DNA from: a virus
Direction: 5' to 3' (one strand)
IMG/VR virus record: IMGVR_UViG_3300025174_000113
Location: 1 to 22,515 of that record
Length of the DNA: 22,515 nt
The position numbers were made by a program, and so were the translations under genes. The notes beneath the pieces are model-generated. The model was given only the letters and a program-made list of their open reading frames with translations. It had not been told where the DNA came from and searched no databases. Positions 1 to 19,885 of the stretch are shown here, piece by piece; within the stretch, counting starts at the first letter, position 1; every line of letters begins with the position of its first letter.

Positions 1-142
1 GGACTCCGCCGAAGCTGGGGCGAGCCGGACGTGCGCTAGTCGCCCGTACCGCGCGAATCGCCTGAATCTCCTGCTGAGTCCGTTGCGCCCGCGCCTTCTT
101 CCGCGCCTGTTGCGCCAGTTTGATTTGCGCCTTGGTCGCCAT
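1..142 (-). CDS. Basic helical protein, N-terminal fragment (cut by window edge)
   Basis: Only the first 47 codons are inside the window; the gene runs off the left edge. It starts at ATG 142, immediately after the TAA stop of the preceding gene, so translation is probably coupled. The visible part begins MATKAQIKLAQQARKKARAQ and is rich in Lys, Arg, Gln and Ala, which predicts a long positively charged helix, then turns to Ser/Pro/Gly (RPARPSFGGV). No cysteines, membrane segment or catalytic motif is visible. Its position at the downstream end of the tail cluster suggests a virion or assembly protein, but that is inference from context only. I do not recognise a family. Confidence 0.7.
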   Translation of the reverse strand, partial: MATKAQIKLAQQARKKARAQRTQQEIQAIRAVRATSARPARPSFGGV

Positions 143-1111
143 TTACAGCCTCCCCGCCTGCCGTTGCGTCGCATCAAACGCAGCCTGCCCCAACCCCGCC
201 TGAGTTTGAAACCCAGCCTGCGTCAACGCCGCCTGCACCCCCGACAGGTACTCGAGCAGTTGCTTGCGCGAGTCATACTCGGTTTGCTGGCGTTGCAGGC
301 CGAGCTCGGCCAACTGGGAGGCGGTCTCCCCGGATTGCAACATGCCCCTCGCGGTGAGGTCGTTTACCGAGCTGCGCCGAGCGAGATCAGCGGCGTGTTG
401 GATGCGGGCCAACGTGGACATGCCCGCTTCGGTGTTCTGCTTCGCGAGCTGACGAACGAGATCGGTAACCCACGGGTTCTGGTTAGCCGCCCCGACAGCC
501 TTGTCGTAGATGGCTTTCTTCGCGTTGTAGGCACCCATCTGGTTTTGCCACGTCCGCAAGTCGTTCGTGTACTGGACGACGGCTGCAGCACGTTGAGGGT
601 TAGAAGTCATGTTCGCGTAGTCAGGTACGGCAGGTCTGATAGGCGCAGCCCCCGGACTAGCAGGCAGGTTCGTCGTTGGATCTAGCGCGCCCACGTCCCC
701 GAAACCGATCAGCGCCTCCTGTATCTTCTGCTGCGCTTGCGCCTGCTGAGCAACCCACTGGGCGTTCAACAGGCCGGTCTGTTGGATGTACCAGGGGTCG
801 GCGAGTATCGGGTTCGACTTCGCCTGCGACCGCTGTTGATTGGCCCACTGCTGCCGCTCGTACGCCTCGCCACCGGGGGCATAGGGATCCTGAAACGGTG
901 GGGGTGGCATGGACTTCCACGGCGCTCCCGCCGTGGGCATCCCGTAGTTCGTTTGCCGCCCCGTCATCGGATCCGTGTACTGAACGAACTGGACAGGCGT
1001 CGCTTCCGCCTCCCAGTTGGCCGCATCCGACGGTGGCAAGCCGGTCATGATCTGCGAGTAGTTTGGATCTACGCCCCCGGCTGGGAGCGGCTGCCATGGG
1101 TTGTTTGCCAT
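143..1111 (-). CDS. Gln/Ala-rich helical virion-associated protein, function unknown
   Basis: This 322-residue protein starts at ATG 1111 behind a strong ribosome binding site (GGGAGG, about 5 nt before the start). The first 110 residues are rich in Pro, Gln, Asn and Trp with little predicted structure. Residues 110-322 are Ala/Gln-rich and look helical, with a conspicuous C-terminal stretch of short Gln-Ala-Gly units (QAGFQTQAGLGQAAF). No signal peptide, membrane segment or enzyme motif is seen. Context at the end of the tail and fibre cluster makes a structural, internal-virion or fibre-assembly role plausible. Its stop TAA abuts the start of the next gene. Family not recognised; the existence of the gene is well supported by length, ribosome site and tight packing. 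Confidence 0.75.
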   Translation of the reverse strand: MANNPWQPLPAGGVDPNYSQIMTGLPPSDAANWEAEATPVQFVQYTDPMTGRQTNYGMPTAGAPWKSMPPPPFQDPYAPGGEAYERQQWANQQRSQAKSNPILADPWYIQQTGLLNAQWVAQQAQAQQKIQEALIGFGDVGALDPTTNLPASPGAAPIRPAVPDYANMTSNPQRAAAVVQYTNDLRTWQNQMGAYNAKKAIYDKAVGAANQNPWVTDLVRQLAKQNTEAGMSTLARIQHAADLARRSSVNDLTARGMLQSGETASQLAELGLQRQQTEYDSRKQLLEYLSGVQAALTQAGFQTQAGLGQAAFDATQRQAGRL

Positions 1112-1120
1112 CTGCCCTCC

Positions 1121-2122
1121 CTAGCTCAATCTCGCGATGATCATGTTCGAGTTCGCTGTCGCGGTCGCTGTTGACCAGGACTGCGTTTTCTTCGCACGCA
1201 ACTCAGCCGTTTGGGAAGCCGCAGTCGTGGTCACATACCATTGATTCGCCACCAATCGAGTCTCACTCGCAACAACATTCGGAACCGACAGCACAGGACT
1301 TTGCTGCGTACCACCGACGTACAAGTACCCAGTCAGAGTCTCAGCGAAACCGGAGCCGTACACAGTGACCGTCACGACATCGACATCGTGGTTGCGAGTC
1401 GCACCACTAAACGTAGCCCAGACGGCGACACCAAGTTCCAAGTTGTTGATCTCAGATGCCGTCCACACCGGCATCGTGCTCCACAGATCGGTGGATGTCC
1501 CGAGCGTGTGAGTCGTGAAATCCGTTTGGGCGGCTGTGGTCTTAGCCGCCCCCACTAGATTTCCGGCTCTTAGAAGCTGAACGTTCCAAGTGCTTCCAGA
1601 AACAGTGGTTTTGCCGATGAACTTGACTTCAACCCCTTGCACTGTTGCGTCGCCAGGAATCCCAGCTCCGAAACCGTAGAGTTCAAGGTAGTCGGACTCA
1701 CCGAGAGCACAGTTGGCGGTCCCACCGGTAACGGCCAGAGCAAGATCCGTGCTCGTCCAAGCCACGTTGCCACCTCGGTCTACGTTCAAGGTGGACGTTC
1801 CATTCGTTTCCCCTGAGTTACCTGACTGTGAGCCCAACGTGAACTCGAAGCTGCCGGTGACAAGGTAGTTGCCGGGGTTGTAGATCGTCGCCGAAGCCCC
1901 GGTGAGAGCCGCAATGGATGTGGTGAGGGTCGTGGCGGTCGCTGCTGTCTTCCCGTTGTTGGCGATCTGGGCGTTCCAGCCGAGCAACTGATTCAGATGA
2001 AATGCTGGTTGGTTGATCTCCAAGTAGGAGCCCAACCATGTCTTGAACTCACGTGGGAATGCGAGCGGGTCAGCCATTGATTCACGCATGATCCGTCGCA
2101 CATCCTGTTCGGTTAGCGCCAT
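1121..2122 (-). CDS. Beta-sandwich tail/fibre protein with a probable nested domain
   Basis: This is a 333-residue protein. The N-terminus (about 1-45, ALTEQDVRRIMRESMADPLA) is helical and may be the attachment segment. The rest is Thr/Ser/Gly-rich and strongly beta-patterned. Residues about 65-85 (NPGNYLVTGSFEFTL) and about 265-333 (YLYVGGTQQSPVLSVP through NMIIARLS) read like the two halves of one C1q/TNF-type jelly roll. Between them sits a different beta domain, about 95-255, with the pattern LWSTMPVWTASEINNLELGV often seen in phage structural proteins. The start ATG overlaps the preceding stop by one base (TGATG). A receptor-binding or fibre-tip role is inferred from fold pattern and position, not from a recognised family. 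Confidence 0.75.
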   Translation of the reverse strand: MALTEQDVRRIMRESMADPLAFPREFKTWLGSYLEINQPAFHLNQLLGWNAQIANNGKTAATATTLTTSIAALTGASATIYNPGNYLVTGSFEFTLGSQSGNSGETNGTSTLNVDRGGNVAWTSTDLALAVTGGTANCALGESDYLELYGFGAGIPGDATVQGVEVKFIGKTTVSGSTWNVQLLRAGNLVGAAKTTAAQTDFTTHTLGTSTDLWSTMPVWTASEINNLELGVAVWATFSGATRNHDVDVVTVTVYGSGFAETLTGYLYVGGTQQSPVLSVPNVVASETRLVANQWYVTTTAASQTAELRAKKTQSWSTATATANSNMIIARLS

Positions 2123-3594
2123 CAGACCCTCGAAGCCTCGCGGGCGTGAACTTCCGCCCCCAACCCGTAGAACTTAGTGACCGAGCTTGCGTTCGTCTGC
2201 GCCACCTTGAACCCCAATCCTTCCGCTGACACGTTCAGGAACCGGCGCGCGTACGTGTACGCGGTCGATTCCGCGAACGTGTTCGACGTGGTACCGTCGA
2301 GCTTCTTGACCGTGATATAACTCGTCGCCTCCGGGGTCGCCACGTAACTAAGAGTAAGCAAAGGGTTGTCTGTGGCAGCGTCCTGACAGTCGTATGTCAT
2401 GTATGCGCGCTTCCACGACAGCTTCCCAAGCTTCGGCTTGAAGAACGCGGTTTCCAACACCGGGGTTACCGCTGTCGTGTCCGCGTCGTTCTTCACCCCG
2501 GCGGCCGGACTCCACATCGACGAGAGAGAGTTCACCCGCGGCTGAGCCCGGCTTCCGTAGTACGTCTCCGCAGCCGTGCCGACCGCATCCCAAAACATGA
2601 CCGCTTTCACATTCGACAACCGCAACCACCGCCGCGTTTCCGGGTCAACCAGGAACGAATCCTTGAACGTGGCCCCGTCCATGACCGAGATGACGTAACG
2701 GCGCCTGTGCCGTCCGGCCGCGATCCTCCACGTCGAGGCGTATGAGGCCACCGTGTCCCGCCAATACCGTTGCATCCCCCCGGCCTTCGTGAGATCCAAG
2801 ACGGCGGCCCCATCGGTGATATACACCCCAGTCGTGTTGGCAAAGATCACTTGGTCGTCGATTACCACGACCGAGCGGGCGTCGATACAACCGGGCTCGT
2901 ACAGGGGCTCTTGCACCATGTCCGTGCCGGGCGGCGGGGTCGCACCTCTGATCCGCTCGACTCGCTGGTTCGAGAACAGTAGGAGCGCGTTGCGAAGGGC
3001 AGCAACGGCGACGATCGGGAACGATGCGCTTATCCACGAGTTCGTCGTATCCCACGAGGTCGGATCTCCGGCCCCGGAGAAATAGGCGTACGTGGGTTGG
3101 GCGCTCGTGTTGGCGAGGACGGTGCGGTCCTTGTAGACGGCGGCGAACTTGGCGGCCGGCGGGCTGCCTGCTAGAGCGCCCAGGGTAGAGCCGTCGTAGT
3201 AGCCGGGGGCGGTGGTGCCGTTGCCACGTGGGATGATCAGCTTGTTGCGGTGAAACGCGAGCGGCCCTACTGGGGTCGAGGAGTTGGAGATCCCGACGTC
3301 GGTGACGGTACCGGCGGCTGCGATCGTGTAGAACTCTCCGTCCTCGTCGATCGCACAGTTCTTCGCTGCCGCGGCGAACGGGGCGTACGCTCCGGCGACA
3401 ATGTAGCTGGCAGTGCTCTTGGTCGCCGAGATGTCAGCGGACCCGTACGACCAGCCGCCCCTCTTTGTCAGCGGTGCGTCCAACCCCGGCAGGTAATCGA
3501 CGAGGTTCCAACATGCATTCCCTGGAAGCCGGTCACGGGAAACGTCACGGACCATCATGTCGAAAGTGCCCTGCAAAGGCGTGACTTTAGCCAC
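2122..3594 (-). CDS. Tail structural protein, probable beta-propeller (nozzle/hub-like)
   Basis: This 490-residue protein starts at GTG 3594, one base after the stop of the preceding gene. It is beta-rich throughout. The N-terminus has LPGNACWNLVDYLPGLDAPL followed by KRGGW, a pattern I associate with podovirus-like tail proteins whose first strand leads into a WD-like propeller. Repeated short blades are visible (for example YKDRTVLANTS, LLLFSNQRVERIRG, VVIDDQVIFANTTGVYI, WLRLSNVKAVMF). The C-terminal 100 residues (from about WKRAYMTY) form a further beta domain. No protease or lyase motif is seen. Likely role: a ring or nozzle at the distal end of a short tail, or a tail hub; this assignment is inference. 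The stop TGA overlaps the next ATG by one base. Confidence 0.7.
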   Translation of the reverse strand: MAKVTPLQGTFDMMVRDVSRDRLPGNACWNLVDYLPGLDAPLTKRGGWSYGSADISATKSTASYIVAGAYAPFAAAAKNCAIDEDGEFYTIAAAGTVTDVGISNSSTPVGPLAFHRNKLIIPRGNGTTAPGYYDGSTLGALAGSPPAAKFAAVYKDRTVLANTSAQPTYAYFSGAGDPTSWDTTNSWISASFPIVAVAALRNALLLFSNQRVERIRGATPPPGTDMVQEPLYEPGCIDARSVVVIDDQVIFANTTGVYITDGAAVLDLTKAGGMQRYWRDTVASYASTWRIAAGRHRRRYVISVMDGATFKDSFLVDPETRRWLRLSNVKAVMFWDAVGTAAETYYGSRAQPRVNSLSSMWSPAAGVKNDADTTAVTPVLETAFFKPKLGKLSWKRAYMTYDCQDAATDNPLLTLSYVATPEATSYITVKKLDGTTSNTFAESTAYTYARRFLNVSAEGLGFKVAQTNASSVTKFYGLGAEVHAREASRV

Positions 3595-3595
3595 G

Positions 3596-5125
3596 TCAGC
3601 ACTCCTCGATCAGATCAAGAGCATTCACGGTAACGGCCGCCAACGTCAACGTGTCCGAACTAAGAGCAGTAAGCGTCAACGCGCCCGGCGTGATCGTCGA
3701 CAATGTGAGCGCCCCTGGAGTGAGAGTAGAAAGCGTCAGCGTGTCGGGCGTGAGCGCCGTGGCGATGACGGTGTGGCATACGACCCGCCCGCCGGATACG
3801 GAGACTGCGCTGGCAACCTTGCCGGTCTTCTGGTAGATGGTGCCGGCCGCTATGTACTCTGAGGCACCGGATGGGACGGCGGCCGATACGACCTTGCCTG
3901 TCTCGGCGGCGGTGAAAACGTCAGTTGCAGAGACCGCCGCGGCGCTGGCGACCATGCCCGTCTCGGCTGCGGTGCGTACGTCAGCACCTGCCACAACAGC
4001 AGCAGACACCACCGAACCGGCCTCTACGGCCTCGCGGGCATCCGCGCCTGACGTGACACCCACAGAGACGATAGAACCGGTATCTACAGCCTCGAACACA
4101 TCGGTGGCTGCAATCGCGACAGCACTCGCCACTAAGCCAGCCTCGACGGCTTCGTACACATCTACTCCCGCTGCGACTACCGCAGAGACGACCACCCCAG
4201 CCTTCTCGTAGGTCGCCGCCTTTGTGCCAACGCCGCTGATGACGGTATCGGAGATGGCCGCGCCAGTCTCAGCGGCCGTGAACACGTCGGCCGCGCTGAC
4301 GACGGCGGCACTAACGACAGCGGCCGTCTCCGTTGCCTCGAACACGTCGGCGCCCTTGGCGACGGTCGCGGAGACTACAGCGCCCGTCTCTGACGCGGTG
4401 AGCACGTCGGGGCCTGCGGTGGCGGCTGCGGAGACGACCGCCCCTGCCTTCGTGTACGTCGTGCCCGCGGCCGCCTTGATCTCGGCAGCGACCGCTCCGG
4501 CCCGAGTGCTCGTCACCCACGAGTACGATGGCGACGTATCCTGTCCAAGCAAGTAGGCGGCCGCGAACCCATCACCCGGAGTGGACGCAGACACGTCGCC
4601 AAGCTCGGTATATCCGGTCTCTTGCGCTTTGGCCTCATTTTTACCGTGCCCACAGAAGATGACGGCCAGGTTGTTAGTCGCATCAGCGAACGCGGCTAGA
4701 GTGACCGTGAGCGACGTGCCTGCTCCAGTCAGTGTGTTAGTGGCCGACTGGACGATGGCCCCAGACCCGTTCGTTCCCGACGTGTCGATGCCAGTCAGTT
4801 GCCACCAATCGTAGTGGCATCCGGTCTGCGTCACACCGTTGAAGTCGATCGTGAGCTGACCCGTGGTAGGGCTTGCACCGAGGGCACGCCAGAGCGAAAC
4901 CATCTTGATTCCGTCAACACCCCATGCCGCAGTCTCAGCGACTTTCACCCAGGTAAGACCACAGCCGGTGATGCTGGTCGGAGCAAGCGCCGGACCTGTC
5001 CCGATCGAGTTATGGACTCCGATCAGTTGCAGCGCGTTCGCGGTCGGCGTCTGCGACGAGGTGAGGTAGCTAGTCGCATCAGTGGTGGACGCCGCGGCTG
5101 CGAGAAGGGAGGCGGAGATCGCCAT
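3596..5125 (-). CDS. Repeat-built tail fibre or decoration protein
   Basis: This 509-residue protein has three parts. Residues 1-222 form a beta-sandwich-like domain ending in the pattern TSTRAGAVAAEIKA, common in phage and bacterial surface proteins. Residues about 223-446 contain roughly 11 imperfect copies of a 20-residue unit with consensus TAxETGxVVSAxVxxGADVF. Residues about 457-506 hold five decads of the type LTPGALTLST, which resemble pentapeptide-like or beta-helix coils. The protein ends in LDLIEEC with a C-terminal Cys. There is no membrane segment. ATG 5125 overlaps the upstream TAA by one base (TAATG). Composition (Ala, Val, Thr, Gly) and repeats fit an elongated fibre or fibrous decoration; family not recognised beyond that. 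Confidence 0.75.
   Translation of the reverse strand: MAISASLLAAAASTTDATSYLTSSQTPTANALQLIGVHNSIGTGPALAPTSITGCGLTWVKVAETAAWGVDGIKMVSLWRALGASPTTGQLTIDFNGVTQTGCHYDWWQLTGIDTSGTNGSGAIVQSATNTLTGAGTSLTVTLAAFADATNNLAVIFCGHGKNEAKAQETGYTELGDVSASTPGDGFAAAYLLGQDTSPSYSWVTSTRAGAVAAEIKAAAGTTYTKAGAVVSAAATAGPDVLTASETGAVVSATVAKGADVFEATETAAVVSAAVVSAADVFTAAETGAAISDTVISGVGTKAATYEKAGVVVSAVVAAGVDVYEAVEAGLVASAVAIAATDVFEAVDTGSIVSVGVTSGADAREAVEAGSVVSAAVVAGADVRTAAETGMVASAAAVSATDVFTAAETGKVVSAAVPSGASEYIAAGTIYQKTGKVASAVSVSGGRVVCHTVIATALTPDTLTLSTLTPGALTLSTITPGALTLTALSSDTLTLAAVTVNALDLIEEC
3608..3757 (-). repeat. Five 30-bp coding repeats (decapeptide units)
   Basis: Inside the 3' end of the fibre gene, about five tandem 30-bp units encode decads such as TLTPGALTLS and TITPGALTLT. 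Hydrophobic Leu/Ile residues recur every five residues, as in pentapeptide-repeat or beta-helix proteins. The units have diverged and the last one (VTVNALDLIE) is degenerate. This is a coding repeat, not an intergenic array. Confidence 0.8.
3788..4459 (-). repeat. About eleven 60-bp coding repeats (20-residue units)
   Basis: Tandem imperfect 60-bp units in the middle of the fibre gene encode copies such as TASETGAVVSATVAKGADVF, EAVEAGSVVSAAVVAGADVR and TAAETGMVASAAAVSATDVF. Two copies (about residues 281-302 and the last two copies, from about 411) carry small insertions. Copies differ enough at DNA level that recent expansion is not obvious, although some adjacent pairs are closer than others. 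Confidence 0.85.
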
Positions 5126-5487
5126 TACATTCTCGATTCGCTATTCAGCATGTAAACGGCCTGCACCATGTTCCTCGCCCCGGCCTTGCGCATCACGGCG
5201 CGGCGCTTGCCCTTGATCGTCTCCGGCGAATAGCCAAGCCGCTTGCCCGTCTGGGCGACCGTCAACCCGTCCGCCGCAGCCCGCAACACCGCCAGCTCAC
5301 TCTCCGTCAATCGCTCATGGCGGTGCGTGAGACGCTCAGGAAGCTCCGTGCGCGCAAGCTCAAGGAGCGCCCGGCCTGCCAGCCGATGGGGCAAGCAACG
5401 TCGCAAGGCCGTGTAGGCGTCCCACGTTCGGCCAGAAGCGAGCGCCCTGCTGATCCCCGGCATCAGATCAGGAAGCGCCAGCGTCAT
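5125..5487 (-). CDS. LuxR/GerE-type helix-turn-helix protein
   Basis: This 120-residue protein starts at ATG 5487 behind a good ribosome site (GGAGG, about 6 nt upstream). Residues about 58-113 match the C-terminal DNA-binding domain of LuxR/NarL/GerE regulators: LTESELAVLRAAADGLTVAQ, then GKRLGYSPETIKGKRRAVMRK with the recognition helix, then a final helix NMVQAVYML. The first 55 residues are helical and carry no receiver or PAS-like motif, so this is a stand-alone DNA-binding protein. It sits inside the tail cluster, just downstream of a terminator that closes the HNH unit, and its stop overlaps the fibre gene start. It could be a late-gene regulator or a host-directed regulator. The domain call is confident; the target is unknown. 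Confidence 0.85.
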   Translation of the reverse strand: MTLALPDLMPGISRALASGRTWDAYTALRRCLPHRLAGRALLELARTELPERLTHRHERLTESELAVLRAAADGLTVAQTGKRLGYSPETIKGKRRAVMRKAGARNMVQAVYMLNSESRM

Positions 5488-5509
5488 TCGGTCCTCCGAT
5501 CACCCATGG

Positions 5510-5530
5510 AAAAGGCCGCTAACGCGGCCT
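5510..5530 (-). terminator. Rho-independent terminator after the HNH gene
   Basis: On the minus strand a 7-bp GC-rich stem (AGGCCGC / GCGGCCT) with loop GTTA is followed directly by a T run (TTTT including the last stem base). It lies 25 bases after the HNH stop and ends about 22 bases before the LuxR-type gene. It should stop minus-strand transcription of the HNH gene. It would also block readthrough from the head operon into the tail genes unless it is antiterminated or leaky. Confidence 0.8.
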
Positions 5531-5554
5531 CCCCACATCCTATGGGAAACGCTC

Positions 5555-6025
5555 TCAATCGAAACACCGGCACGTCGGGCAATGCGGCGAGGACGCACCC
5601 CTACCGTGGTTGCCTATCCATAGCTCGAGGTTCTCGATGCGGTTGTCCAGCTTGTCGCCGTTCAAGTGATGCACGGTCTCGTGAGATCCAAGGGAACGTC
5701 CGAGCTCGCGCTCCATCACCACACGATGCTCAGGGCGGTACGAACGTCTTCCCTTACCTACTTCCCCTACAAGCACTTGCCGATACCCATTTGTATCGAT
5801 GTACGACCCTTTGGCCGCCAACCCTCGCAGACGTCGGCCAACCTTGTCAGCCCGATTCGCGCATGCTCGCGAGCAGAAGGTGCCAGGTTGGAACTTCGTT
5901 CTGCCCACAATGAACGGGAAGGTCTTCCCGCATTGAAGGCAGGTGCGCTCCTCGCCTCGATGCCGCTGACGGGAGTCTTGATACCACCACTGACCTGATC
6001 CATCCTTGAACCATGTAGCTGCCAT
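5555..6025 (-). CDS. HNH endonuclease, likely homing or mobile
   Basis: This 156-residue protein belongs to the HNH superfamily. N-terminal Cys pairs C29-x2-C32 and C51-x3-C55 (CSRAC) form a zinc-binding ribbon. The HNH core follows: [20 protein letters not shown] (first His at residue 100), then [18 protein letters not shown] with H119/H120, N128 and the terminal Asn-Leu. A further Cys cluster CPTCRC closes the protein. It should cut double-stranded DNA using a divalent metal. I chose ATG 6025 because a consensus promoter ends 6 bases before it; the longer reading from 6124 would run into the neighbouring structural gene. It has its own promoter and terminator, and it interrupts an otherwise contiguous structural gene string, as expected for a free-standing homing endonuclease. 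Confidence 0.9.
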
Positions 6026-6031
6026 ACCATT

Positions 6032-6060
6032 AATATAGCAGGTGAGCGGGTGGCCGTCAA
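6032..6060 (-). promoter_or_regulatory. Sigma-70-type promoter for the HNH gene (leaderless)
   Basis: On the minus strand there is TTGACG at 6060-6055, a 17-base spacer, then TATATT at 6037-6032 preceded by TG plus one base (extended -10). Six bases (AATGGT) separate the -10 box from ATG 6025, so the predicted transcription start is the A of the start codon. No Shine-Dalgarno sequence precedes the ATG, which agrees with a leaderless transcript. Confidence 0.8.
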
Positions 6061-6080
6061 ACATGCCAATTTGCGGGAGT

Positions 6081-6512
6081 TTACGAATTGTATTGGAAGC
6101 TGGGCGTGACTTTAATGATATCATTTGTGGCCAGGACCACGGCGGTCACGTCGTCGAAGTTCGCCGCCCCCTCGCACTTGTCGCCGGTCGTCGAAAGGAT
6201 GTCGCTGAGGAAGAGGCCGTTGATCGTCGCGCCGGTCGCCCCTACGGTCGGGAACGTGATCTGCGAATACGTCGTCTTCCGCCCGCCCGTGCCGGCGGCC
6301 ACCGCCCCCCACGTCGCGGTTGTGAGCTCCTGCCGTGCGTAGTTCGTGAACACGGTCTCGGTGATGTCGGCCATCGTCTGACCGGACGTGATCACCGTCG
6401 ACGCTGTCTGTGACGTGAACAGGCACAGCCAGCAGCTCGTCTGCCTGGTTGAGTTCTTCGGGAACTGGCCGAGGAGCAGGTCGAGCCCCTCATCTGGGAT
6501 GATTTCGGAAAT
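6081..6512 (-). CDS. Beta-rich phage structural protein, apparent ATT start
   Basis: This 143-residue reading frame ends in [15 protein letters not shown]. It resembles a common phage family of about 140 residues with the pattern [14 protein letters not shown] near the N-terminus, [10 protein letters not shown], then [15 protein letters not shown] in the middle and DIIKVTP at the end; the comparison is from memory. The conserved N-terminal part (6396-6509) has no ATG, GTG or TTG before GTG 6395. The frame opens right after the TAA of the preceding gene, so ATT at 6512-6510 is the likely start, with a G-rich ribosome site (AGGGGGGG) 8 bases upstream. If only canonical starts were allowed the protein would begin at GTG 6395 (104 residues) and lose the conserved segment. 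Position between neck and tail genes suggests a minor head/neck or tail component. Confidence 0.75.
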
Positions 6513-6740
6513 TTATTTCACCCCCCCTCGCGGCTCGTGCGTGTGTCCGGTGTCGGCGCCTGGCTGGCCGCAGTTCGGGCAGACGCCCTCGCCGGCCAGA
6601 CCCTTTTCCTCGATCTCCTCGTACGCCTTCCCGGTCAGTACGTGGAGTTGCTGGGAGGTGATGCCGCCTGTGAAGTGGCCGGGCTCGCCGACGGCGCCGA
6701 GCGAGCAGGCCGGGTTGTCGCACTGGTAGACGACGCTCAT
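6513..6740 (-). CDS. Small zinc-ribbon-like protein
   Basis: This 75-residue protein starts at ATG 6740, with a strong AGGAGG site about 6 bases upstream, and overlaps the preceding gene by ATGA. Four cysteines in two pairs (C7/C12 and C54-x2-C57, the latter as CPNCGQ) are arranged as in a zinc ribbon with a helical insert between them (LHVLTGKAYEEIEEKGL). The C-terminus is His/Gly-rich (TGHTHEPRGGVK). It ends at TAA, and the next gene continues in the same reading frame directly after that stop. Function unknown; similar mini-proteins occur among phage structural genes, where they may be assembly or adaptor factors. Confidence 0.75.
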   Translation of the reverse strand: MSVVYQCDNPACSLGAVGEPGHFTGGITSQQLHVLTGKAYEEIEEKGLAGEGVCPNCGQPGADTGHTHEPRGGVK

Positions 6741-7012
6741 ATCGCTCCTCCTGGTTCGGGTAGCGGCCCCCCAAGCGGATGCTTGGGCGGGCCCTGGCAC
6801 GGGTCGCACAGCCGCGGCGTGTCGTCGTACGCCACGAACAGGTTCATGCAGCACGCGCAGAGCTGGAGCGTGTGTTTCCGCGGGTCGTACTGGACGCCGA
6901 GGGTGCGGCCGAGCCTCTTGACCGCGTCGGGGTCGCGCACTTGCCGCTTCTGGCGGTCGTGGACGCAATACACCTTGGCGCTACCGCCGATCCCGAGTTT
7001 CACAGCAGCCAT
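6737..7012 (-). CDS. Small Cys-rich zinc-binding-like protein
   Basis: This 91-residue protein has C52, C54 and C55 (LCACC) with C69-x2-C72 (CDPC), which looks like a zinc-ribbon or treble-clef fold; an extra C16/H18 pair lies upstream. Residues 20-50 are basic (RQKRQVRDPDAVKRLGRTLG). ATG 7012 overlaps the preceding stop by one base (TGATG) and the gene ends in an ATGA overlap with the next. It may bind nucleic acid or act as a structural adaptor. No exact family recognised. Confidence 0.75.
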   Translation of the reverse strand: MAAVKLGIGGSAKVYCVHDRQKRQVRDPDAVKRLGRTLGVQYDPRKHTLQLCACCMNLFVAYDDTPRLCDPCQGPPKHPLGGPLPEPGGAI

Positions 7013-7695
7013 CAGCGAGCGATACGCGATGGGTCAGAGTAGACGGGACGTGGGTAACGACCGAGTTTCATCGCCGCCGGCCGAGTACCGCCCAACCGCC
7101 GTTCCGCCGTCTTCATCTCCTGACATGTGCGCTCGAACAATGCTCGCCAGTAGGAGCCGAACTGTGACGGCCCCTGCTCGTTGTACTCGGCTGCTCTCGC
7201 GAAGGCGTAGTATTCGAGCGCCACATGCCACTCCGCTGGAACAGAATCAGGGGTGTTCGCCCCGGTCGTCATCGCGGTCGGACGGGGAACGTAGAAGATC
7301 GTCAACGTCTCCCCCGACCCCGGGGTCGGGTACAGCATCAGTGTGTTCGCCTGCTGGCAGTACCACTGAGCTGTTGTTGGCGAGGACGGCTGGTTCATCC
7401 GGTACGTCAGCAAGTCCTGTGTCGTCAACCGGATCAGCGGATAATCCGTTGTGGAGACGGTGTTGTACAGGTCCAGGATCGACAGGATCGCCGAGTCCAA
7501 CGTGTAGTCGTCGGTGCCGGATGTGAGGGCCATCGTCGCGGTCCCGACCTTGCAATGGGTTTTCAGCAACACCTGCTCCTGCGCCTCGTTGACCCACCCG
7601 TCGATCAGCGTTTGTTCATCCCCGGCGGCGGTACCTGTCAGGCCGATGATCGCGCTCACCCTGAGCCGGTATTGCGTCAAAGTGGTGGAGGCCAT
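7012..7695 (-). CDS. Head-tail adaptor (connector)-like protein
   Basis: This 227-residue protein has an N-terminal helical part with TLIDGWVNEAQEQVLL, a beta-rich centre (DYTLDSAILSILDLYN, NTLMLYPTPG, ETLTIFYVPRP) and a helical C-terminal third (PAEWHVALEYYAFARAAEYN and WRALFERTCQEMKTAERRL). This order matches the adaptor or gp4/gp6-type connector proteins that dock under the portal, including the adaptor of SU10-like phages. The assignment is based on pattern and on the SU10-like capsid and portal nearby. It would form a dodecameric ring between portal and tail. ATG 7695 sits directly after the preceding TAG, and the stop overlaps the next ATG by one base. Confidence 0.7.
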   Translation of the reverse strand: MASTTLTQYRLRVSAIIGLTGTAAGDEQTLIDGWVNEAQEQVLLKTHCKVGTATMALTSGTDDYTLDSAILSILDLYNTVSTTDYPLIRLTTQDLLTYRMNQPSSPTTAQWYCQQANTLMLYPTPGSGETLTIFYVPRPTAMTTGANTPDSVPAEWHVALEYYAFARAAEYNEQGPSQFGSYWRALFERTCQEMKTAERRLGGTRPAAMKLGRYPRPVYSDPSRIAR

Positions 7696-8046
7696 CTAGG
7701 GGATCCACACTCCTCTCGTGCGTAACCGTTGCTCCGCCTGCTCCGCCTCACGTTCGCGGAGCTCAGCGTCGGTGACCATGTACTTGTCGTCGCCGGCGTA
7801 CAGACGGGAGAAGTCGATTCTTTGCTGGTCTTTCACTGGGTAGCCACAACCTGGGAACGAGCACACCTCCGGATACGACGCGGTGAACTTTTGGTAGCAG
7901 TTCAGGCACCGGTAGCCTTTCGCAACCTGATCCAACCACTCGGCGCTGAGCCAGGTTACGTGATCGAGGGTGAGCCGGCCGGTCGCATCCGTGACCGTTA
8001 TGGAGTCGTCTTCGATGTCGATGTTGCCCTTCCACTCGTCGCTCAT
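7696..8046 (-). CDS. Zinc-ribbon-like protein, unknown function
   Basis: This 116-residue protein has an acidic N-terminus (EWKGNIDIEDDSITVTDATG), then the Cys pairs C47-x2-C50 (CLNC) and C62-x4-C67 (CSFPGC), which fit a single zinc ribbon. A charged helix rich in Glu/Arg (AELREREAEQAEQRLRTRG) follows at the C-terminus. ATG 8046 overlaps the glycosyltransferase stop by ATGA, and its TAG is followed immediately by the adaptor gene. It may be a head-completion or neck assembly factor; this rests only on position. Confidence 0.75.
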   Translation of the reverse strand: MSDEWKGNIDIEDDSITVTDATGRLTLDHVTWLSAEWLDQVAKGYRCLNCYQKFTASYPEVCSFPGCGYPVKDQQRIDFSRLYAGDDKYMVTDAELREREAEQAEQRLRTRGVWIP

Positions 8047-8597
8047 GGGACCCCCTCCCAAAAGTCGAGATGGGAAGCAAACAGGCTCTTGTTGTGCCCG
8101 TGGAACCGGTAAACCCACGTGATTTCGGGAACGCAGAAGAAGCGGGCGCCTTTCTGTTGGCAGAGCCGCCAGAACTCATTGTCTTCTGCCCGCTGCTCTT
8201 TCCCCCACCTGACCTCTTCCCACAATGACCGACGGATCAGAGCGGTGGCCGGAATCTGCGGAATGTCCGCATCCGGGTCGTACGGAGTGTTAGGCGACCA
8301 GCCGCGACCGGTCACCTCACAATAGGAGTAGATGACATCCGCCTCATTCGTGTGAGCCGCCAGGGTTTCCAAGTGATGGGGGAGCATTAGGTCATCGTCA
8401 GCCAACGTGGCTAGCCACTCGCAGTCCGTTCGTTTCGCCATCCTGTTGAGCTGGGGGCCGCACCTCTCGGTGCGCTTCTCGTCCAGCTCGATCAGGTGCT
8501 CGACTGGTTGCAACGTTTGGGCGCGCACACTGGCTTTGCACTCCTCGAGCATGTCGGCGCGCTCCGGGATGGTGGGGGTGATCACCGCGATTCGCAC
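8043..8597 (-). CDS. GT-A (family 2-like) glycosyltransferase
   Basis: This 184-residue protein carries hallmarks of a small GT2 enzyme. It begins with the nucleotide-binding strand RIAVITPTIPERADML and has helix CKASVRAQTLQPVEHLIEL. The metal/nucleotide DxD site is DDD at residues 67-69 in LATLADDDLMLPHH, and the likely catalytic acidic pair is E138-D139 (RAEDNEFW). It should transfer a sugar from a nucleotide-sugar donor. I chose GTG 8597, which overlaps the preceding gene by 16 nt, because the alternative GTG at 8585 (GTGA overlap) would remove half of the first beta-strand. It is shorter than typical GT2 enzymes (about 220-300 residues) and is the last member of a four-enzyme sugar cassette. 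Acceptor unknown; a virion protein is likely. Confidence 0.85.
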   Translation of the reverse strand: MRIAVITPTIPERADMLEECKASVRAQTLQPVEHLIELDEKRTERCGPQLNRMAKRTDCEWLATLADDDLMLPHHLETLAAHTNEADVIYSYCEVTGRGWSPNTPYDPDADIPQIPATALIRRSLWEEVRWGKEQRAEDNEFWRLCQQKGARFFCVPEITWVYRFHGHNKSLFASHLDFWEGVP

Positions 8598-9310
8598 CTG
8601 TAGAACTCCTCAGCGGCGAGAACAACGTTCTCCGGGTAGAGAGATTCGAGCTGCCAGAACGGCTCCGGCCCCACTGACTCCCATAAGTGCTCAAACTGAT
8701 CGAACGAGTGCAGGTTCAGGTGGCTCTTGAAGCCGACCCAGGCGAGATGATCGATCTCCCTGAACGTGAGCCTCGCCCCGGGGTTCGCCCCGGTTAGATT
8801 GGAGATGGTACTCGCGTCAATCCCGTTCTCCGCCTCGTCCGTCGCCGGCCTGTCCCCGCACGCTTTCAGAAGCTCTGCGGGGATCACGAACGGGCCGGCA
8901 CCGTAACGGTTGAACTGATCCATCACGCTCAACCTGGCCAACCGTGTCCCTGTTTCGTCGACCATCGCGTGTTGCCTGGATGTGAAAATCTCGTCATTTG
9001 CGGGGAGTTCTGTGAACACGGTTCGGGGGAGTATCCAGTTGTCCGAGCCAACCGGAACCACGTAATCCGCACCACAGTTAGCCGCGAACTGAAAGCCATC
9101 GTTGTACTTCCTGCCGAGTGGCGATGACGCCTGCGTCACGGTGTGAAACCCGAGCTTCCTGGCTATGTCGATGTTTCCGTCATCGGCGATGACGACCGCG
9201 TATCCGTCCGCCCCAGGCAGATGATCGAGCGCCCAGCGAAGCTCCTGGAAACAGACGGCGGACAGAGCAACGCGGCCCCAGGCAGGGATCACGAACCAGA
9301 CGCTCGGCAT
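8582..9310 (-). CDS. GT-A-type glycosyltransferase
   Basis: This 242-residue protein has a GT-A fold outline: first strand VWFVIPAWGR, AVVIADDGNIDIAR at residues 38-51, and GADYVVPVGSDNWILP around 80-95 where SDN (89-91) takes the place of the usual DxD. A helical C-terminal region follows (FREIDHLAWVGFKSHLNL). Replacement of the second Asp by Asn may change metal use. ATG 9310 overlaps the preceding gene by 22 nt; GTG 9292 would give a GTGA overlap but would cut off the first strand. It lies between the nucleotidyltransferase and the second GT-A enzyme, so both probably work on one glycan. Donor sugar and acceptor cannot be read from sequence. Confidence 0.75.
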   Translation of the reverse strand: MPSVWFVIPAWGRVALSAVCFQELRWALDHLPGADGYAVVIADDGNIDIARKLGFHTVTQASSPLGRKYNDGFQFAANCGADYVVPVGSDNWILPRTVFTELPANDEIFTSRQHAMVDETGTRLARLSVMDQFNRYGAGPFVIPAELLKACGDRPATDEAENGIDASTISNLTGANPGARLTFREIDHLAWVGFKSHLNLHSFDQFEHLWESVGPEPFWQLESLYPENVVLAAEEFYRCESR

Positions 9311-9711
9311 CTCTCGATCAGCTCCGACGTGGAGATCCCAGGCGTGTATGGCGGATGCACCGTTACGATCTGGTGCTTCGCCAGAAACGCCTCCGTGACC
9401 CCCATCTGCGCATACAGGGGCAGCCCCGTCCAGTCCGACCCATGAATCAGGTAGTTCGGCTTCACGCCCAGGATCGCCCGGGTGGAGTCCTCGTCGTCAT
9501 CGTTGACGATCACGCTGCTGACGTAGCGGCAGGCGTCGACGACAGCCCACCGTTCCTCCAAGGTCATGACCGGCGGGCGCTTGTACCGTGTGACGAACTC
9601 GTCCCGGTTGAGGGAAACGACGACGTTTCCGTATCGGGCGGCGCTACGGAGAATGTTCACGTGACCTGGGTGGAACAGGTCGAATGTGCCTCCCACATAG
9701 CAGACGCTCAC
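9289..9711 (-). CDS. TagD-like cytidylyltransferase
   Basis: This 140-residue protein starts at GTG 9711 (GTGA overlap with the previous stop). It has the full nucleotidyltransferase signature: GGTFDLFHPGHVNIL with HPGH at residues 14-17, a Lys/Arg-Pro segment RYKRPPVMTLEERWAVVDAC, then YLIHGSDWTG at about 87-96, and GISTSEL near the C-terminus. Length and the combination of GSDW with ISTSE fit the glycerol-3-phosphate cytidylyltransferase group (CTP plus glycerol-3-phosphate giving CDP-glycerol). Related enzymes use ethanolamine phosphate, ribitol phosphate or heptose phosphate, so the substrate is uncertain. It likely makes the activated donor for the neighbouring transferases. An earlier in-frame start at 9825 would run deep into the upstream gene and is rejected. 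Confidence 0.85.
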   Translation of the reverse strand: MSVCYVGGTFDLFHPGHVNILRSAARYGNVVVSLNRDEFVTRYKRPPVMTLEERWAVVDACRYVSSVIVNDDDEDSTRAILGVKPNYLIHGSDWTGLPLYAQMGVTEAFLAKHQIVTVHPPYTPGISTSELIERCRASGS

Positions 9712-9965
9712 GCTGCCACCCGCTCCCTCACTCCGACAGCTTCCCGCCGTGCTTTCGTCCAACCGCAGTAGTGACACATCCGCCCAATTGGGACGTATCG
9801 CGGAACCCAGTGCTTCCCTACACACGAGAGTGAACGAGAATCCGCGAGCGTTTCGTCCGACACCAACTCAATCTCGCGCAAGAGTTGGGCACGCCAGTGC
9901 TTGGGCCAATCAGTCCTGCTCTTTACGTAGGCGATGTGTCGCTCACGGCACGACGTTGTTTTCAT
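9708..9965 (-). CDS. Small Cys-containing protein in the sugar cassette
   Basis: This 85-residue protein starts at ATG 9965 (ATGA overlap). The N-terminal half is basic and helical (RTDWPKHWRAQLLREIELVS); the C-terminal half has C48, C64 and C67 (MCHYCGW), which could bind a metal with a His. Its last residues, RREAVGVRERVAA, closely resemble the end of the preceding glycosyltransferase (WREAVRVEERVAA), and the DNA is similar too. It may be a small partner of the cassette enzymes. Family not recognised. GTGA overlap with the cytidylyltransferase gene indicates coupled translation. Confidence 0.7.
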   Translation of the reverse strand: MKTTSCRERHIAYVKSRTDWPKHWRAQLLREIELVSDETLADSRSLSCVGKHWVPRYVPIGRMCHYCGWTKARREAVGVRERVAA

Positions 9966-10993
9966 GCCGCCACCCTCTCCTCAACCCTCACAGCTTCCCG
10001 CCACGCCGAGACGGTACGCTTGATATCCCTGTGCTCGAGCACGTACTCACGAGCCGCTCGGGCGAGCATCAGCACCTCCTCGGGACTTCTAACAAGATGC
10101 TTGACGATCTTCTTGAAGTCCCACGAATGCTCAGCAACCAAGCCGGGTGCTTCCCCATCCCACCATGGCCGGTACGGCTCCACCTTCGACACGACGACAC
10201 AGGCACCACCCATCGCTCCCTCAAGCGCCTTCACGTCACTTTTACAGTCCTCCCATTCCCCCTGCCTGAGCGGACACAACATCACGTCGAGTAGACCGAC
10301 ATTACGCCGGTACTGGGAGAGAGAGTCAGTCCATTCGACGTGCCGGTACGGAAAACGGTAACGCGCGAAGTCCGGGTGGATCCCGATGATCACCACTTCT
10401 ACGTTCGACTGTCTGCTTGCCCATTCCAGGGCGTCCAAGATCAGAGGGGCGTCGTACACGTGGGAGTCCGAGGCGGCCCAGCCGATCCGTAGAATCCCGT
10501 CCTTCTGATGCGTCGGCTCAGGCCAATCATCTGGGTCAACCGAGTTGCGGCACACGTGGATCTCCGAGTTCAGGTGTGCGTATACCTCGGCGAGTTTCGG
10601 GGTGGAGACGATCATCCCGTCCACGAACTTACTAACCTTAGAAAACACCTCGTATGAATGGCGATCGGAGCCGTCAAATCGTTCCCGCCAATCCGAAAGG
10701 TTGAGCGGCGGATGCAACAAGTAGTTGTCATCCGCTTCGGCGAGCACCCGTATCCCCTGGGATTTCATCTGCGCGATCAACAGGGCTCGGGTCGTGTTGC
10801 CCGGAAACAACCAGATAGCGGTTTCCCCCTCCTGCCTCGGGAACCGGTACTCGCCTTCCTGGTCTCCAGGTTGCAGGTCCGCGGGAGTCAGTTTCACTAC
10901 CGTGCCCGGCAAGTGACGGGCAGGCAGCCTGGCCCGGTAGTAGTTGACGCCGGCTGTCGCCTGTGCCCAGTACGTGGCTAGCGAGTCGGTCAA
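9962..10993 (-). CDS. GT-B-type glycosyltransferase (GT4-like)
   Basis: This 343-residue protein shows a GT-B layout. N-terminal domain: VNYYRARLPARHL and a Rossmann-like stretch IRVLAEADDNYL. Linker and C-terminal domain: ILRIGWAASDSHVYD at about 167-181, VEVVIIGIHPDFARY, then CKSDVKALEGAMGGACVVVS at about 250-269. In GT4 enzymes that last segment contacts the nucleotide sugar, and the Glu (258) is typically catalytic or donor-binding. It is a likely retaining transferase, cytoplasmic, with no membrane segment. The start is TTG 10993, forming a TTGA overlap with the preceding stop; no better start lies nearby. It opens the sugar cassette behind the head genes. Confidence 0.85.
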   Translation of the reverse strand: MTDSLATYWAQATAGVNYYRARLPARHLPGTVVKLTPADLQPGDQEGEYRFPRQEGETAIWLFPGNTTRALLIAQMKSQGIRVLAEADDNYLLHPPLNLSDWRERFDGSDRHSYEVFSKVSKFVDGMIVSTPKLAEVYAHLNSEIHVCRNSVDPDDWPEPTHQKDGILRIGWAASDSHVYDAPLILDALEWASRQSNVEVVIIGIHPDFARYRFPYRHVEWTDSLSQYRRNVGLLDVMLCPLRQGEWEDCKSDVKALEGAMGGACVVVSKVEPYRPWWDGEAPGLVAEHSWDFKKIVKHLVRSPEEVLMLARAAREYVLEHRDIKRTVSAWREAVRVEERVAA

Positions 10994-11589
10994 GCAGTGA
11001 CCTCCACCCCATCCTCCTCCGGCACCCGCACCAACTCCTCCAAGGCTTCGAGGACTTCCTGACGGTTCAGGTTCTGCCGTTCGTAGGCGAGCACATCATC
11101 CGGCGAGTACCCGTCCTCGCGAACCTTCGCGACGATCGACTCTGCGACCATCTCCACCGTCCGTCGGCCCGCCGCCCGCAACTCGTCATACCGGGGCCAC
11201 GGCTTCCCGACCTTCGGCTGCTCCACAAGCAGGAAATCACGGCCGTGCTGATCATGGGAAATCAACAGTTCCTCCACCCGTGCGCGCAACTTCGGATCCT
11301 GAATCTGGTGCGTGTCGAACGTACCAATCCTGTCGTCGTTCGACACCGGGGTCACCATGTCGTCCCGTAGTCGACCACCCTTATTGAGCGCCGCACCGAA
11401 CCTGTCGTACGCAACCTGCTTCTCGAAATCGGTGTAGTCGTTTCGCTGGAATTTCGCGACGAATCCGCGGGGGAACTCCGTCTCAGCACGCTCCTTCGGC
11501 TTCACCTGCATCGACCCGTCCGCGAGCCGTTCCACCTCCTCATGCACCAGCACAATCCTGTAGTTCGCGTGCGGACTGATAAATCTCAT
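10990..11589 (-). CDS. Head-associated protein downstream of the capsid gene, unknown
   Basis: This 199-residue protein starts at ATG 11589 with a GGGAG ribosome site about 6 bases upstream; that site lies inside a possible hairpin. The N-terminus is beta-like (MRFISPHANYRIVLVHEEVE). The centre carries aromatic and charged motifs (FPRGFVAKFQRNDYTDFEKQ), and the C-terminal half is highly charged with helices (YERQNLNRQEVLEALEELVR). The segment RIGTFDTHQIQDPKLRARVE may be a structured linker. Location directly after the capsid gene suggests a capsid-associated or stabilising role. I do not recognise a family. Confidence 0.75.
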   Translation of the reverse strand: MRFISPHANYRIVLVHEEVERLADGSMQVKPKERAETEFPRGFVAKFQRNDYTDFEKQVAYDRFGAALNKGGRLRDDMVTPVSNDDRIGTFDTHQIQDPKLRARVEELLISHDQHGRDFLLVEQPKVGKPWPRYDELRAAGRRTVEMVAESIVAKVREDGYSPDDVLAYERQNLNRQEVLEALEELVRVPEEDGVEVTA

Positions 11590-11593
11590 CGAG

Positions 11594-11620
11594 CTCTCCC
11601 TTCGTTCGGGAACGAGAGAG
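11594..11620 (-). promoter_or_regulatory. Possible RBS-sequestering hairpin before the post-capsid gene
   Basis: On the minus strand CTCTC (11620-11616) can pair with GAGAG (11598-11594), with an inner stem TCGTT/AACGA around loop CCCG. The outer pairing covers most of the GGGAG ribosome site of the gene starting at 11589. Because CTCTC is also the last part of the longer hairpin just upstream, the two structures exclude each other. Inference from base pairing only. Confidence 0.45.
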
Positions 11621-11639
11621 GGGCCAGAAGGCCCCTCTC
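11616..11639 (-). terminator. GC-rich hairpin after the capsid gene (terminator or processing site)
   Basis: A perfect 10-bp inverted repeat, GAGAGGGGCC and GGCCCCTCTC separated by 4 bases, lies 25-48 bases downstream of the capsid stop. On the minus strand it is not followed by a strong T run (TCGTTCCC). It may be a leaky terminator or an mRNA 3' stabiliser that lets the capsid message be more abundant than the downstream genes. Confidence 0.6.
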
Positions 11640-11663
11640 GTCGTCCTAGTTCTTCCCGATCGC

Positions 11664-12836
11664 TTACGTAGCGGAGTACGAGGTGACGTTCTTCAGGATT
11701 CCATGAGCCTGCTGCTGTCCGAACTCCAGGCTCAGAGGCGAGTAGAACTCGTCCGCCTGCGCCGTCGCCGACGGCTCCTGGATCTTCCTTCTAAGTGACC
11801 CGATCGGCCAACCCCGGAACGGCCGCAGCCGCACCTTCGCCATGTCGATCAGGAACCCCCACGTACCGTAGTTCGACCCGGTCGCGTTGAGATCCGACCA
11901 CTCCTTCTTGACGATGATCGGAATGTTGCCACCGTATGTCGAGTCGATCCACCCGTTGACCTTGACCCCGAACTTCTGGGTTCCACCGTCACGCGGAGCC
12001 CAGATCCCCCGGTACATCTGGGAGAGGACCGTTGCGACCGTGGGAGCGCAGAAGAACACGGGATCTTCGGCGTAGCCGAGAGGACCCTGAAGGAACGTGT
12101 CCATCTCCGCTGGCGTCAGAGCACCACCCGCAGACGTGATGTTCGTCGAGATGAACTCGACCGCACCACCGCAGGAGCCACGCACACCCGCGCTGTTGTA
12201 GTCGCGAGCCCCCCAGAACAGGGTGGACTCGATCGACTGCTTGTGCTCGACGCCCTTGCGGACGATCTCCTTCTCCGGCTCCCGGCCACCGTACAGCTCG
12301 TTGCCGATCTCGATGAACGACGTGAGCATCGGGTGGCGGATCTCCTGCACGTAGTTGTACCCTCGGACGCGCTGCGTGTACCGGTTGACACCGGACGAGG
12401 CGCCCTGCGTGTAGGCGTTGCCGACAACGAGGATCTTTGCCGCTGACGTTGCGGACGCGGCTGCGGTGCCACCCCAGGTGCGGGTGACGGCAGCCGAGTT
12501 GGCCGAGACGCCGGTGACGAGCAGGCCCTCGCCGGTCTCCATGACGCGGAGCACGTCGTTGATCTGAAGAACGGTGTTGCCTTCCCCTGTGGTGACGGTG
12601 ATCGCGGTGGCGGCCGACGTTGCGGACGCTGCGAGACCCGTCGTTCGGGGGGTGTACTGCTCCTCGAGCCAGTCGATGACTTCCCTAGTGGCTTCCTTAC
12701 GGCTGATCTCCATGAGCATGGTCGTGAACTGCGTGCGGTCCTCCTGCAAACGGTGGATCCGCTCGGACATGTCGACGACGAGCTCGTTGGAGAGCACCTG
12801 TTCGTTGGTGATTAGTCCTGTTTTGATCGTTGCCAT
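11664..12836 (-). CDS. Major capsid protein (SU10-like, HK97 fold)
   Basis: This 390-residue protein forms the capsid shell. The N-terminal arm (1-55) is helical (SERIHRLQEDRTQFTTML). Residues about 70-140 are Ala/Thr-rich beta sequence (SAATAITVTTGEGNTVLQ to AAKILVVGNAYTQG), which fits an inserted beta-barrel. The central and P-domain part contains GYNYVQEIRHPMLTSFIEI, the long helix EPEKEIVRKGVEHKQSIEST and LFWGARDYNSAGVRGS; the C-terminal part has MYRGIWAPRDGGTQKFG and YGTWGFLIDMAKVRLRPFRG. This layout matches the DUF5309/SU10 major capsid family. ATG 12836 has GGAG about 8 bases upstream. It is preceded by a scaffold and followed by a hairpin, the classic head-gene context. The 71-base gap on its 5' side shows no convincing promoter. 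Confidence 0.9.
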   Translation of the reverse strand: MATIKTGLITNEQVLSNELVVDMSERIHRLQEDRTQFTTMLMEISRKEATREVIDWLEEQYTPRTTGLAASATSAATAITVTTGEGNTVLQINDVLRVMETGEGLLVTGVSANSAAVTRTWGGTAAASATSAAKILVVGNAYTQGASSGVNRYTQRVRGYNYVQEIRHPMLTSFIEIGNELYGGREPEKEIVRKGVEHKQSIESTLFWGARDYNSAGVRGSCGGAVEFISTNITSAGGALTPAEMDTFLQGPLGYAEDPVFFCAPTVATVLSQMYRGIWAPRDGGTQKFGVKVNGWIDSTYGGNIPIIVKKEWSDLNATGSNYGTWGFLIDMAKVRLRPFRGWPIGSLRRKIQEPSATAQADEFYSPLSLEFGQQQAHGILKNVTSYSAT

Positions 12837-12907
12837 GATTGTTTCTCCGTTCGGTTCGGCTAGTGCTTCCTATGTCGGCCGACCGGACGTGTCGGAAACC
12901 GGGTCGC

Positions 12908-13810
12908 TCAGCGTTGGCTGAAGCCGGTTTCCTGGTCCCAGAGGTCGTAGAGCCGTTGTGTGTCCGCCGGTGTCTGCTGCCCGGTCCCCTGGGGGACCTG
13001 GGTTGCTGAGGCGACGGTTGCTGCGACGCGCTGCGCCAATGAGTCTGCCTGCGGTGAGGGTGCTGACTCTGGTGCTGGGGGCTGGCCGGGTGTGCCGACC
13101 ATGCCGCGCGCCATGTAGTAGAGGGTCTCGAAGACCCGTTCCTTCTGCTCCTGGGATCCCTGCTGGAGGGGCATGAGCAGCTCGGGGGCTCGTTCCGCGG
13201 CGGAAGCCATCGCTTCCTGCAACTGGTCGAACTCCGGCAGCTTCGCACGGGCCGAGTTCCACGCGGACGTGAGCGTCTGCTGATGGTACGTCGTCTGCAT
13301 CGGCTGGATCACCTGCTGCACGAGCTGCTGCTGGTTCTCAGCAACAACCCTCCTGGCGTGCAGGTCGAGGGCGGCGAACTGGTTCTCGGTGGCGAGAGTC
13401 TCCAGTGACCGCTGGTACAGCAGCTCGTTGCCGGTTTGCATTGCGTACACGGCGGCGCCACGAGGGTCACGTTCGATCCAGTCCTCGATGTCCGCCTCGT
13501 CGTACTGCGGTTGCTGAGGTTGCTGGGCCTGCTGGCGGGCCAGGCCGAGCTCGTTGCCCATCTCCCCCAACTTGGACTGAAGTTCCCCGTAGGCGCGCTC
13601 TAGCTCCTCCGGCGTCTTGTACTTGCCGGCCAGCAGCTTGGCGCCCAGGCTGCGGATCTCAGCGGACTGATCGGGCTCGTCAGGTTCCGCCTGTGGCGGC
13701 TGCTCACCCGGCGCTTCGTCCGGTGTGATCTCCTGTGCGGGTGCCCCAGTGGGGGCCGCCAGGTCGAGGCCCTCGAGGAAACGGGCCTCCTCGTTCTCAG
13801 TGACGCTCAC
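12908..13810 (-). CDS. Capsid scaffolding protein
   Basis: This 300-residue protein starts at GTG 13810 (GTGA overlap). The N-terminal 50 residues are acidic and Pro-rich. Next comes the motif GKYKTPEELERAYGELQSKL (about 62-81), frequent in phage scaffold proteins. The middle is a long Gln/Glu/Ala-rich coiled coil (QQPQYDEADIEDWIERD, VVAENQQQLVQQVIQPMQT). The C-terminus (TPADTQRLYDLWDQETGFSQ) is a compact amphipathic helix of the sort that binds the capsid protein. Its position directly before the capsid gene supports the role. It would be a transient core for procapsid assembly. No protease domain is seen, so a separate maturation protease is not evident here. Confidence 0.85.
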   Translation of the reverse strand: MSVTENEEARFLEGLDLAAPTGAPAQEITPDEAPGEQPPQAEPDEPDQSAEIRSLGAKLLAGKYKTPEELERAYGELQSKLGEMGNELGLARQQAQQPQQPQYDEADIEDWIERDPRGAAVYAMQTGNELLYQRSLETLATENQFAALDLHARRVVAENQQQLVQQVIQPMQTTYHQQTLTSAWNSARAKLPEFDQLQEAMASAAERAPELLMPLQQGSQEQKERVFETLYYMARGMVGTPGQPPAPESAPSPQADSLAQRVAATVASATQVPQGTGQQTPADTQRLYDLWDQETGFSQR

Positions 13811-14100
13811 GACGTCCCCTTCCCGTTGACATCACGCAACGTGTCCTCAAGTCGCTTCTCGGCCTTCTCAGGGGTATCGAGAAGCGTGAACACACCATCC
13901 CAGAACCCGTGCTCGTAATCAGCCTTGCGCTGGTCGATCGGCTCGAAGGTGCGGATCACGGACCGGCCGACCAACAGGGCTTTCTGATCACGGATGTTCT
14001 CGTAGTAGTGACGCAAATCCGCCCAGGACGGGTGCTGCTTCAACGCAGCCAACCTAGACGTTTCCGTCACTTCAGGTGGGGTGAGCAGCCGGTTACGCAT
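13807..14100 (-). CDS. Small conserved phage protein between portal and scaffold
   Basis: This 97-residue protein starts at ATG 14100, overlapping the portal stop by 8 nt, and ends in a GTGA overlap with the scaffold. It has helical sequence with the notable segment DYEHGFWDGVFTLLDTPEKA near residues 62-81, where aromatic and Gly residues line one face, a pattern I have seen in small proteins next to phage portal genes. No Cys and no membrane segment. Role unknown; an assembly accessory factor is plausible. Confidence 0.75.
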   Translation of the reverse strand: MRNRLLTPPEVTETSRLAALKQHPSWADLRHYYENIRDQKALLVGRSVIRTFEPIDQRKADYEHGFWDGVFTLLDTPEKAEKRLEDTLRDVNGKGTS

Positions 14101-15928: not shown

Positions 15929-16240
15929 CTACCCCATCCCTCCCGGCATCCCGCCGCCCTGCATCCGCATCAGCACCTTCTGCGCCGGAGACACCCCCAA
16001 CGCGGCGTCACCTTCCTTCTGATCCTTCGCCAGAAGTTGCTGCAACCCGGCCAGAAACTTCAGCGCGGCCGCCTTGTCCTCCTCATCAGGCTCGGCGCGT
16101 GCGTAGAGCTGTAGGTGTTCCATCGCGGCTTTCAGGTGCTCGAGCGCCTGCGTCTCCCCGCCACCCTGCGGAGCCGGCGGTCCGGGTGGGGGACCCATCA
16201 ACCCGGGCGGAGGACCGCCCATCATCGGCATCTGACTCAT
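15929..16240 (-). CDS. Small Pro/Met/Gly-rich protein between terminase and portal
   Basis: This 103-residue protein starts at ATG 16240 with a strong GAGGAGG site about 5 bases upstream, 10 bases after the terminase stop. The N-terminus is disordered (MSQMPMMGGPPPGLMGPPPG). A helical core follows (ETQALEHLKAAMEHLQLYAR and DKAAALKFLAGLQQLLAKDQ). The end is Gly/Met-rich (QGGGMPGGMG). The earlier in-frame start at 16324 would overlap the terminase gene by 74 bases without a ribosome site and is rejected. Similar low-complexity proteins sit next to portal genes in other phages. Function unknown. Confidence 0.75.
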   Translation of the reverse strand: MSQMPMMGGPPPGLMGPPPGPPAPQGGGETQALEHLKAAMEHLQLYARAEPDEEDKAAALKFLAGLQQLLAKDQKEGDAALGVSPAQKVLMRMQGGGMPGGMG

Positions 16241-16250
16241 CAGAACCTCC

Positions 16251-19873: not shown

Positions 19874-19885
19874 GGGCACGACAAA

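Follow-up and report, generated by a model that had tools for sequence, protein, structure and literature searches.

Gene organization at the locus

The stretch of DNA analysed here in full (22,515 nucleotides, hereafter called the window) is a viral contig carrying SU10-type podophage genes, and its portal, major capsid and adaptor proteins match SU10 Pfam families. The features that concern us are all coded on the minus strand:

6081..6512, minus strand: Gp80-like tail-fibre/structural gene of 143 codons, from ATT (6512-6510) to TAA (6083-6081)
6510..6512, minus strand: proposed start codon ATT, aligned with ATG (29) or GTG (1) in 30 of 32 non-redundant relatives
6518..6527, minus strand: extended Shine-Dalgarno GGGGGGGTGA, separated from the ATT by a 5-nt spacer and predicted to pair with the 16S 3' end through 10 bp, including three G-U
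6513..6740, minus strand: zinc-ribbon gene (75 amino acids), whose TAA (6515-6513) abuts the ATT; its synteny with the fibre gene is shared by relatives
6396..6506, minus strand: conserved N-terminal codons 3-39, absent from the product if GTG 6395 is the start
6393..6395, minus strand: GTG (codon 40), the first in-frame canonical start, rejected as main start

The first-pass annotation proposed that the fibre gene opens with ATT immediately after an in-frame TAA, and inspection of the minus strand confirmed this arrangement (CGA GGG GGG GTG AAA TAA ATT TCC GAA ATC ATC CCA GAT GAG). The fibre frame harbours no ATG, GTG or TTG codon 5' of GTG 6395. The zinc-ribbon and fibre genes share one frame, and the TAA alone separates them.

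The fibre protein scores 28.6 bits against the Pfam PF23140 signature (Gp80, podophage GP4 fiber I), for a cut-off of 27, and 18 of the 33 members of the fibre-family alignment match the same signature. The similarity is weak and covers the middle of the profile (positions 19-98 of 128). An AlphaFold model of the protein has a mean pLDDT of 81.5, with values of 70-90 over residues 11-40, and its helix 9-14 and strand 26-32 are encoded 5' of GTG 6395. A fold search of the PDB with this model gave no match with E < 0.001; the model resembles predicted viral structures, several of which are named tail or minor tail protein, at E values of ~1e-4. Its predicted product makes 6081..6512 a fibre or structural gene of a short-tailed phage.

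Two other genes of this region are of note. An HNH endonuclease frame (5555-6124, minus strand) lies directly 3' of the fibre gene and overlaps its end, and the DNA similarity of the window to four relatives (L003-L006) stops between ~5704 and 6082. Further on, positions 3596-5125 (minus strand) code for a 509-residue protein with degenerate Ala/Val/Ser-rich repeats (like AAVVSAAVVSAADVFTAAETG), which has no family match and may be a surface protein or form a fibre shaft.

The N-terminus and start codon in relatives

We collected 32 non-redundant relatives of the fibre gene from IMG/VR and GTDB genomes. The stretch 5' of GTG 6395 is conserved in every relative found, with a family-wide motif near the N-terminus that begins E-I-x-P-D-E-G-L-D. 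Compared with the nearest relative, L003, the 37 residues of codons 3-39 are all identical in spite of 12 synonymous differences (dS 0.68), and four residues are changed over codons 40-143. The conservation and the exclusively synonymous changes relative to L003 show that the region 5' of GTG 6395 is truly coding and under purifying selection; these changes may be older than the ATT. The alignment with homologues that the first-pass annotation had called for thus bears out its view that a conserved N-terminal part is encoded upstream of the first canonical start.

The codon aligned with ATT is ATG in 29 of the 32 relatives and GTG in one (L044), followed by an alanine codon. The two others (L027 and L060) lack a start at the aligned codon, but their frames are open upstream and contain an in-frame GTG or ATG there. 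Thus, in all relatives with a frame closed immediately 5' of this position, the codon is ATG or, once, GTG. Codon 2 is TCC in the window and GCN in the others. Among the relatives compared, the combination ATT TCC is carried only by the window and by contig IMGVR_UViG_3300025314_000080, which is 100% identical to the window over positions 6-19998, has different ends and the same ATT, and may share reads with it. A scan of the viral contigs with a degenerate pattern for the ATT junction (AARTARATHTCNGARATHATHCCNGAYGARGG, viral_contigs) revealed no carrier beyond the same phage, and isolate phage genomes gave no hits when searched at the DNA and protein levels. Any persistence of the ATT over time would therefore have to be judged from the one phage genotype that carries it.

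Other start arrangements were observed in the family. In L027 and L028 (codon 1 at 1486) and in L060-L062 (1498), GAT or GGG replaces the usual start. The frames of these relatives are open upstream and must therefore start further 5'; candidates are a GTG at -17 codons in L027 and an ATG at -3 in L060. In L015, L016, L019 and L064 (3401, 3372, 3432 and 1642, respectively), a conserved N-terminal extension (pattern HYRDY-P-E---LF-MAQMMPDEGLD) begins ~20 codons 5' of the usual start; its ATG or GTG is near the zinc-ribbon stop codon or overlaps it. In these four, translation of the fibre protein may start at either of two sites.

The Shine-Dalgarno and the junction with the zinc-ribbon gene

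The G-rich ribosome site that had been noted 8 bases before the ATT corresponds to a 10-bp extended Shine-Dalgarno at 6518-6527. In the arrangement GGGGGGGUGA-N5-AUU, the element GGGGGGGUGA (6527-6518) can pair with the 16S 3' end over 10 positions, of which three are G-U pairs. Among 20 gene starts of the window for which it was calculated, the energy of this site (-16.2 kcal/mol) is the strongest, with the proviso that the host's anti-Shine-Dalgarno may differ. Sites at least this strong make up 0.19% of the coding positions; if the spacing is constrained, they account for 0.09% of positions on the whole minus strand. Elsewhere in the frame, GTG 6395 reaches -1.5 kcal/mol and CTG at codon 12 -7.7 kcal/mol. 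Most of the relatives with ATG have energies between -7 and -14 kcal/mol, and L011 alone (-16.4) equals the ATT site. That the weakest start is paired with the strongest Shine-Dalgarno among the starts scored suggests compensation.

In the predicted RNA fold, the Shine-Dalgarno is part of a 7-bp helix with codons 4-6 (downstream UCAUCCC), and AUU is in the loop. Such a hairpin could hide the Shine-Dalgarno unless the upstream gene is translated. It is only suggestive, since the local fold is no more stable than shuffled sequences (z -0.61).

The zinc-ribbon and fibre genes are adjacent in many relatives, with several types of junctions: TAA-ATG in L014, TAG-ATG in L011, and TAATG overlaps, which place the two genes in different frames, in L007, L013, L029, L045, L048 and L049. 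Because this stop/start adjacency or overlap recurs, termination-coupled reinitiation at the junction is plausible, and the coupling between the two genes would be older than the ATT. Termination-coupled reinitiation is well documented in general (PMC12548453), and in E. coli reinitiation falls when IF3 is overexpressed (PMC2268962).

Probable initiation at AUU, alternative explanations and known systems

The first-pass annotation had left three options: an unusual start at ATT with coupling to the gene upstream, readthrough of the TAA, or a sequence error. The alignment, the Shine-Dalgarno, the purifying selection and the adjacency of stop and start favour the first. We consider it probable that translation is initiated at AUU with the help of the extended Shine-Dalgarno, at reduced yield and probably with coupling to the end of zinc-ribbon translation. 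The start codon of the fibre gene would have changed from ATG to ATT, and ribosomes would begin at AUU with the initiator fMet-tRNA, with the exceptional length of the Shine-Dalgarno helix (GGGGGGGUGA, 5-nt spacer) holding them in place. These ribosomes would probably be the ones that have just completed the zinc-ribbon gene, the UAA of which is contiguous with the AUU, and translation of that gene would open the predicted helix over the Shine-Dalgarno. The expected product is the full-length protein of 143 residues with an N-terminal fMet, made at a yield below that of AUG and probably under IF3 restraint. We infer initiation at AUU, the coupling, the reduced yield and the IF3 dependence from the sequence and by analogy; low, IF3-controlled expression in particular is deduced from the known AUU genes. 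Translation starts of this sort are rare but already known, and imply no new mechanism.

A more elaborate scenario appears rather unlikely to us. In it, the combination of AUU with a strong, possibly hairpin-masked Shine-Dalgarno would cause the structural protein to be made only by termination-coupled reinitiation, which would set the fibre copy number relative to the zinc-ribbon protein and render it sensitive to host IF3.

The main rival of initiation at AUU is a recent start-loss mutation, with ATG changed to ATT and Ala to Ser at codon 2, that would leave the fibre gene barely expressed or not at all. The ATT is one base away from ATG, as in any single start-loss mutation, and is confined to one genotype; the TCC found at codon 2 in place of GCN would also be consistent with a GG-to-TT double change, provided that the ancestral sequence was ATGGCC. 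However, the remaining frame is intact and conserved, none of the other gene starts scored has so strong a Shine-Dalgarno, and the same genotype has been assembled twice, perhaps from shared reads. We therefore regard start loss as unlikely.

A sequencing or assembly error, the true codon being ATG, would account for the presence of ATG or GTG in all comparable relatives. Nevertheless, it is very unlikely, as the second contig, with different ends, agrees on ATT and is identical over ~20 kb, although it may not be fully independent if reads are shared; moreover, codon 2 differs as well, and no change in homopolymer length yields a sensible alternative. A frameshift within the G7 run was also considered and rejected: the in-frame TAA stays, so that no upstream start is rescued. 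Thus, ATG does occur in relatives (29 of 32), as the first-pass annotation had envisaged for a mistaken ATT, whereas the correction of the codon by resequencing that it coupled to this finding is, so far as a second assembly can tell, contradicted by the ATT of that assembly.

Also very unlikely is a functional protein whose translation begins further 3', at GTG 6395 or CTG codon 12. The former is the first canonical start and the one that a gene finder would pick, but it has no Shine-Dalgarno (-1.5 kcal/mol) and that of the CTG is weak (-7.7 kcal/mol), and conserved residues and structural elements would be deleted from the product.

Readthrough or recoding of the TAA into a zinc-ribbon/fibre fusion of ~219 residues is suggested by the presence of both genes in one frame with the TAA alone between them, but we consider it extremely improbable, as the six relatives with TAATG overlaps hold the two genes in different frames, the relatives possess their own ATG, no in-frame zinc-ribbon fusion is present among the loci examined, and TAA, TAG and TGA are all used as stops in the window. 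An alternative genetic code with TAA as a sense codon was rejected, as TAA terminates the portal, the capsid and other genes of the window.

If AUU is the start, gene finders limited to ATG, GTG and TTG would place the start of the fibre protein at GTG 6395 and miss the first 39 residues. Because of this limitation, phage structural genes of like kind may be mis-annotated. Our literature searches found no AUU start in a phage structural gene.

The product itself can be compared with known phage proteins. The window resembles SU10-type podophages by its portal, capsid and adaptor, and the fibre protein resembles Gp80/GP4 fiber I (PF23140) in scoring above the Pfam cut-off, as do 18 of the 33 family members. 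The latter similarity is nevertheless weak and restricted to the middle of the profile, and a GP4-like placement in the virion is conjectural.

As for the start, experimentally characterized AUU starts are few, namely those of infC, pcnB and cvfC1. The infC gene of E. coli has an IF3-controlled ATT start (PMC5472188), and an AUU start of pcnB is reported in a reference of PMC13009471. The fibre gene resembles infC, with its IF3 autocontrol, and pcnB in that AUU is the sole plausible start of a conserved frame, and low, IF3-sensitive initiation would be expected; it differs from them in being a phage structural gene, located directly after a stop codon and with ATT in a single phage genotype. 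In S. aureus, extended Shine-Dalgarno sequences accompany AUU and AUA starts, whose yield is ~10% of that of AUG (PMC13009471). The fibre gene shares with cvfC1 (AUU) and ccpN (AUA) of that species the association of a non-canonical AUH start with an extended, start-proximal Shine-Dalgarno helix (PMC13009471), but the starts of cvfC1 and ccpN are conserved across species and were mapped by Ribo-Ret, whereas that of the phage is lineage-specific and known from its sequence. Finally, sigR of Streptomyces, which has a GTC start and is repressed by IF3 (PMC5472188), similarly has a rare start, missed by gene finders, within a tightly coupled gene pair; it differs by its codon, its regulatory function and the experimental proof of its start.
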